Shown here piece by piece: positions 6,289 to 6,333 of a DNA stretch of 20,478 nucleotides (position 1 is its first letter; each line of letters begins with the position of its first letter). Below the pieces are notes generated by a model that saw only the letters and a program-made list of their open reading frames with translations, had not been told where the DNA came from and did no database searches. The translations under genes were made by a program, and so were the position numbers. Origin of the DNA: a virus; IMG/VR virus record IMGVR_UViG_3300010318_002262, positions 1 to 20,478 of that record. One strand, 5' to 3'.

Positions 6289-6333
6289 ACTGCAAATCCT
6301 CTATCGTCGGTTCGATTCCGACCCGCGCCTCCA
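6289..6333 (+). other. attP: attP core: 3' half of a tRNA-Cys(GCA) gene
   Basis: From the anticodon loop onward this reads as the 3' half of a tRNA. The loop CTGCAAA (6290-6296) carries anticodon GCA. The T arm is GTCGG (6306-6310), TTCGATT (6311-6317) and CCGAC (6318-6322). The acceptor strand is CCGCGCC (6323-6329), followed by T73 and CCA (6330-6333). GCA anticodon and U73 are both characteristic of tRNA-Cys. The matching 5' half (GGCGCGG acceptor strand, D arm, GAGGA anticodon stem) is absent upstream, so it is not a functional tRNA gene. Phages that integrate into tRNA genes carry exactly this kind of 3' fragment, which restores the tRNA after integration. It lies beside the integrase. 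With phage genes on both sides, the sequence represents the free phage. Confidence 0.85.

Follow-up and report, generated by a model that had tools for sequence, protein, structure and literature searches.

Analysis of the window, a stretch of viral DNA of 20,478 nucleotides, indicates that the segment 6289–6333 is very probably the attP core of a tailed, temperate phage whose hosts are Opitutales and which would integrate into the host tRNA-Cys(GCA) gene through the anticodon loop.

A tRNA-Cys 3′ half shared with Opitutales genomes

6289–6333, + strand: very probable attP core, comprising tRNA-Cys(GCA) from its position 31 through CCA (3′ half); exact in 20 Opitutae/Puniceicoccaceae genomes
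6290–6296, + strand: anticodon-loop heptamer CTGCAAA, predicted strand-exchange region; host identity starts at 6289 and position 6288 already differs

The first base of the segment (A) closes the 5′ anticodon strand; it is followed by the GCA anticodon loop (CTGCAAA), the 3′ anticodon strand (TCCTC) and the variable loop (TATC), and the segment continues with a perfect 5-bp T stem (GTCGG TTCGATT CCGAC), the 3′ strand of the acceptor (CCGCGCC), T73 (T) and CCA. All the tRNA-Cys elements that a sequence-only reading had assigned to 6289–6333 (GCA anticodon, T arm, acceptor 3′ strand, U73 and CCA) are present there. Its statement that the 5′ half is lacking also holds, because both ARAGORN (no complete tRNA in the 20,478-nt window) and cmscan (no Rfam family in the window, even at E ≤ 1) came back empty. 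The exact core has no match in viral_contigs.

In genome_contigs, a collection with one genome per species, the 44-mer 6290–6333 has 21 exact matches in 20 genomes (two of the matches share one MAG), and all 21 form the 3′ part of complete 74-nt tRNA-Cys(GCA) genes. Record titles of the 20 genomes name Opitutae, Opitutales or Puniceicoccaceae, with one exception titled just Verrucomicrobia. Identity between host and window starts at A6289 in every match and extends at most 4 bases beyond CCA (45–49 bp in total), which is too short an extension for a genus to be named. Exact identity of more than 40 bp with bacterial tRNA-Cys genes, for which the sequence-only reading had proposed to search, is thus present, and the tRNA-Cys match is not due to chance. 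The core had also been put forward as a direct way to identify the host. It points to Opitutales (Verrucomicrobiota) as the likely host order, since the 44-mer always sits in a complete tRNA-Cys gene of Opitutae/Puniceicoccaceae in these 20 genomes. When up to 3 mismatches are allowed, the core is present in 44 of 373 Opitutales genomes, and the tRNA-Cys target looks single-copy because 41 of those 44 have it once.

Integrase and candidate arm-type sites

4987–6144, − strand: tyrosine integrase (PF00589, E 1.6e-11; phrog_1, E 2e-34; active-site positions aligned)
6154–6160, + strand: candidate arm-type site TGGGACA, repeat on the integrase side of the core
6177–6183, + strand: candidate arm-type site TGGGACA, repeat on the integrase side of the core
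6382–6388, + strand: candidate arm-type site TGGGACA, repeat on the opposite side of the core
6439–6807, + strand: gene conserved in the family, to the right of the integration slot; homologues adjoin the integrase gene in relatives

The core is located 144 bp upstream of the integrase gene, which is transcribed away from it and for which ATG 6144 is a likelier start than TTG 6204 of the listed ORF. Alignment with related integrases reveals that the active-site positions are filled; several relatives share with it an N at the position of the first HxxR histidine. The core itself is oriented away from the integrase gene, whereas in 35 of the 36 relatives with a tRNA 3′ half the half points toward it; the remaining one, L263, also points away. 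The three TGGGACA repeats flank the core on both sides, an arrangement matched by 167 of 2000 shuffles and therefore weak on its own. Relatives of the same layout have strong 8-base arm repeats (TGGTGACA in four copies, TGTTGCCA in four to five); for four of the five relatives tested, none of 2000 shuffles equalled them.

The window integrase falls outside the integrase clade of its phage family and groups with integrases of Opitutales and of the phage Moulinsart (99/96 support, with long branches). A single-sequence scan of viral_contigs with the integrase gave no match, and a PDB sequence search returned repeat-protein matches that we discarded as spurious. Some Opitutales integrases related to that of the window (L044, L049, L057 and L067) adjoin tmRNA genes, while most of the remaining ones (L043–L071) adjoin a tRNA gene.

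Phage genes flanking the core

50–2095, + strand: family A DNA polymerase, left flank (phrog_17, E 4e-75; homologue in G001)
2782–4917, + strand: primase/helicase-like protein, left flank (weak phrog_1829 and phrog_1156 matches; homologue in G001)
7956–9563, + strand: terminase large subunit (terL), right flank (PF03237, E 1e-11; phrog_2, E 2e-28)
10249–12588, + strand: portal-like protein, right flank (weak phrog_533 match, E 6e-4; position after terL)
14143–15825, + strand: predicted major capsid protein, right flank (AlphaFold2 model, mean pLDDT 65.5; best PDB match the phicrAss001 capsid, E 3.7e-13)

The sequence-only reading had placed the core next to a tyrosine integrase and between phage genes, and our analysis agrees, with the polymerase and primase-like genes on the left and the terL, portal-like and capsid genes on the right. 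The product of 14143–15825 belongs to no Pfam or PHROG family; its identification as the capsid protein is suggested by an AlphaFold2 model of moderate confidence, an earlier model built from 7 sequences (pLDDT 37) having been discarded. Further to the right, a tail-fibre-like protein with BspA-type leucine-rich repeats (16452–18620) is followed by a gene of the sulfotransferase family (18607–19422; PF13469, E 1e-18). Megablast of the whole window against INPHARED gave no match.

In the related contig G001, homologues of the polymerase and primase are located about 4 kb from the terminase block in one record, and both flanks of the core are therefore taken as phage DNA. As the attP on the contig is undivided, the contig is most likely unintegrated phage DNA. 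The earlier description of the phage as present in free form is thus well supported by the phage DNA on both sides of the core and the agreeing layout of G001, though short of proof. That the phage is temperate, as also claimed, is suggested by the integrase and attP; no repressor or excisionase was identified.

The segment might instead be the attR of a prophage in its integrated state, with host sequence on its right; a tRNA 3′ half displaced by such a prophage would adjoin the integrase gene just as the segment does in the window. However, the right side carries the terminase, portal-like and capsid genes, and the gene order after the slot is that of the relatives, which leaves this explanation with almost no probability. 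Tandem prophages in one chromosome would produce the same integrase–core–phage junction, unintegrated DNA then not having been sampled, and sequence alone cannot separate such prophages from free DNA. But two adjacent copies would be required, for which there is no evidence here, and tandem prophages are the rarer state; we regard this arrangement as improbable.

The segment might also be a chance occurrence or a decayed relic of a phage tRNA without any role in integration. Genes for tRNAs do occur in phages, some of them decayed, and the arm-type sites of the window are weakly supported. The identity to host genes from the anticodon loop through the CCA end speaks against such a relic, as does the location of the segment in the integrase 5′ flank, a position at which relatives carry halves of different tRNAs interrupted at the corresponding point; this explanation is very improbable indeed.

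Proposed integration into tRNA-Cys(GCA)

For integration at the attP core, the integrase (4987–6144) is expected to bind the candidate TGGGACA arm sites (6154, 6177 and 6382) on both sides of the core, and strand exchange with the host tRNA-Cys(GCA) gene would take place in the anticodon loop. The 5′ part of the host gene would thereby be joined to the identical 3′ half of the phage, giving an intact tRNA-Cys at one prophage junction, while the host's own 3′ half would end up at the opposite prophage end, beside the integrase gene, which would read inward. When the host 5′ half and the window 3′ half were joined in silico, ARAGORN recognized an intact tRNA-Cys(gca). This result, together with an identity that starts at the loop, backs the earlier proposal of integration into a host tRNA-Cys gene from the anticodon loop onward, and the tRNA 3′ halves found in the integrase 5′ flank of 36 family relatives provide supporting context. 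Because no prophage of the window phage was found, we infer recombination and integration from the sequence identity and the intact joined tRNA. Besides the missing prophage, the weakness of the window's arm repeats on their own, the asparagine in HxxR and the orientation of the core speak against the attP reading.

The sequence-only reading had looked to a related prophage in tRNA-Cys, with a second copy of the core one genome length away, for confirmation. Neither this nor any other prophage of the window phage, nor a lysogen with both attL and attR, was found among the 373 Opitutales genomes, although such a prophage may still exist outside this set. A capsid search of the same genomes detected just two fragments of 39–40 aa, both inside degraded elements. 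In G106, two copies of the tRNA-Cys 3′ half are present (contig C1, 3721072–3721115 and 3809060–3809103; L104 and L103), the second (42 bp) lying 88 kb downstream of the complete tRNA-Cys and on its strand, a pattern like that around an old island inserted at this target. This genome was rejected as a carrier of the prophage, being not among the integrase matches and having chromosomal-looking genes near both ends, and its repeat was attributed instead to an unrelated island or an old duplication. G179 was also rejected: an integrase (25% identical) abuts its tRNA-Cys gene, but without the family capsid.

A phage family with changing tRNA targets

Related contigs in IMG/VR number 97 by the capsid profile and 241 by the terminase profile, while INPHARED yields no match to the family capsid or portal. 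In the contigs that reach the integration slot, the homologue of the 6439–6807 gene usually has the integrase gene on its left, and the 5′ flank of the integrase gene contains part of a tRNA. The 3′ halves belong to Arg-ACG (13 loci), Val-GAC (11), Phe-GAA (6), Pro-TGG (4), Thr-CGT (1) and Val-TAC (1), and a 5′ half of Thr-TGT is present at 6 loci; these counts are of distinct loci, not of independent events. At least eight tRNA targets are thus used in the family, Cys-GCA of the window included. The halves were sought by a pattern that requires a perfect T stem and CCA, so some targets will have been missed.

For one set of 41 contigs, the terminase tree requires at least 17 target changes and the integrase tree at least 9 (counts without a significance test), which points to exchange of the integrase–attP cassette. 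L155 (Val) and L160 (Phe), for instance, have nearly identical terminases and different cassettes. We consider it likely that this family, without capsid relatives in INPHARED, has a fixed slot and exchangeable integrase–attP cassettes, so that phages with near-identical terminases differ in their tRNA targets. In the same reading, the tRNA is rescued in three ways that correspond to the three attP forms in the family (a tRNA 3′ half; a tRNA 5′ half that may have a promoter of its own; a short core with a complete phage tRNA), and the window represents a deep branch with an unrelated integrase and tRNA-Cys as target.

In the phages with the 5′ form (L026, L027, L029, L030, L106, L112 and L119), the attP upstream of the integrase gene is a tRNA-Thr(TGT) 5′ half that ends in the anticodon loop, and a terminator-like hairpin and a conserved TTGCAT-16-TAGTGT lie between the integrase gene and the half. 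From its conservation by eye, TTGCAT-16-TAGTGT might be a candidate promoter for the restored tRNA; it fails a simple sigma-70 scan.

The short-core form is seen in L172 (1280–2594), where a short Thr-CGT core forms part of TCTCATTCGTAATGAG and is bracketed by pairs of TGGCAATA repeats; the contig also has a complete tRNA-Thr(CGT), which overlaps the 3′ end of the integrase gene on the opposite strand. Degraded elements of 18–19 kb in two Opitutales genomes, G287 (L291, 4103–5376) and G265 (L292), with right ends in L300 and L297, encode an integrase that shares 43% identity with the one of family member L030; they also contain a 33-residue capsid fragment, which matches the window capsid at 61% identity. 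Within these genomes the element interrupts tRNA-Thr(CGT) at a core of 15 bp, its flanks give an intact tRNA-Thr when joined, and a complete tRNA-Thr(CGT) of differing sequence overlaps the integrase end, an arrangement that is the one of tRNA-dependent lysogeny. The related integrase and capsid fragment indicate entry into Opitutales by a family member or by an element derived from one.

Relation to known systems

In the Islander collection (PMC4383910), a 3′ fragment is present in 3760 islands, and 2083 sites are anticodon-centred; tRNA 3′-fragment sites are the commonest kind, and the 5′-fragment form, with 159 of 3919 islands, is a minority already known. Like Islander subsite A, the window has an anticodon-loop 3′ tRNA half beside a tyrosine integrase gene, with the tRNA restored upon integration, but it differs in host group (Opitutales), in integrase sequence and in a core oriented away from the integrase gene. 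Marine phage contigs have been assigned to hosts by integrase/attP–tRNA matches, and group G11 was linked in this way to a verrucomicrobial single-cell genome (PMC3861242). The same logic of host assignment is applied here, which is the extent of the comparison with G11.

The only INPHARED relative of the window integrase is that of the Akkermansia phage Moulinsart (28% over 54%), whose record end beside the integrase gene is a tRNA-Met(CAT) 3′ half starting at the anticodon loop. It differs from the window phage in target tRNA and in its gut host, and is absent from the INPHARED capsid, terL and portal search listings, to which, with the integrase, the comparison was limited.

A short core combined with a complete tRNA is known from mycobacteriophages and fits CRP-810 (PMC10865867; PMC11288001). 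L172 and the G287/G265 elements likewise pair a short core with a complete tRNA gene of the same isotype, as in tRNA-dependent lysogeny (PMC10865867) and the CRP-810 type (PMC11288001), whereas the window would restore its tRNA through the 45-bp core and has no tRNA gene in the 20-kb fragment. No capsid homology to the CRP-810 type was detected, as the INPHARED capsid search, in which OR671924 was included, gave no match.

The site in the window is thus a textbook arrangement, and host assignment by such matches is already established, including for a marine verrucomicrobial phage group. Three forms in one family and frequent changes of target might be the part that a specialist would not expect; a limited search of the open literature found no description of the three forms together in one target-switching family.

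The tRNA-Cys match assigns an uncultured phage a specific order as its likely host and offers an integration site that can be tested. In the family, the integration target changes often and separately from the packaging genes, so that target switching can be followed along the tree.
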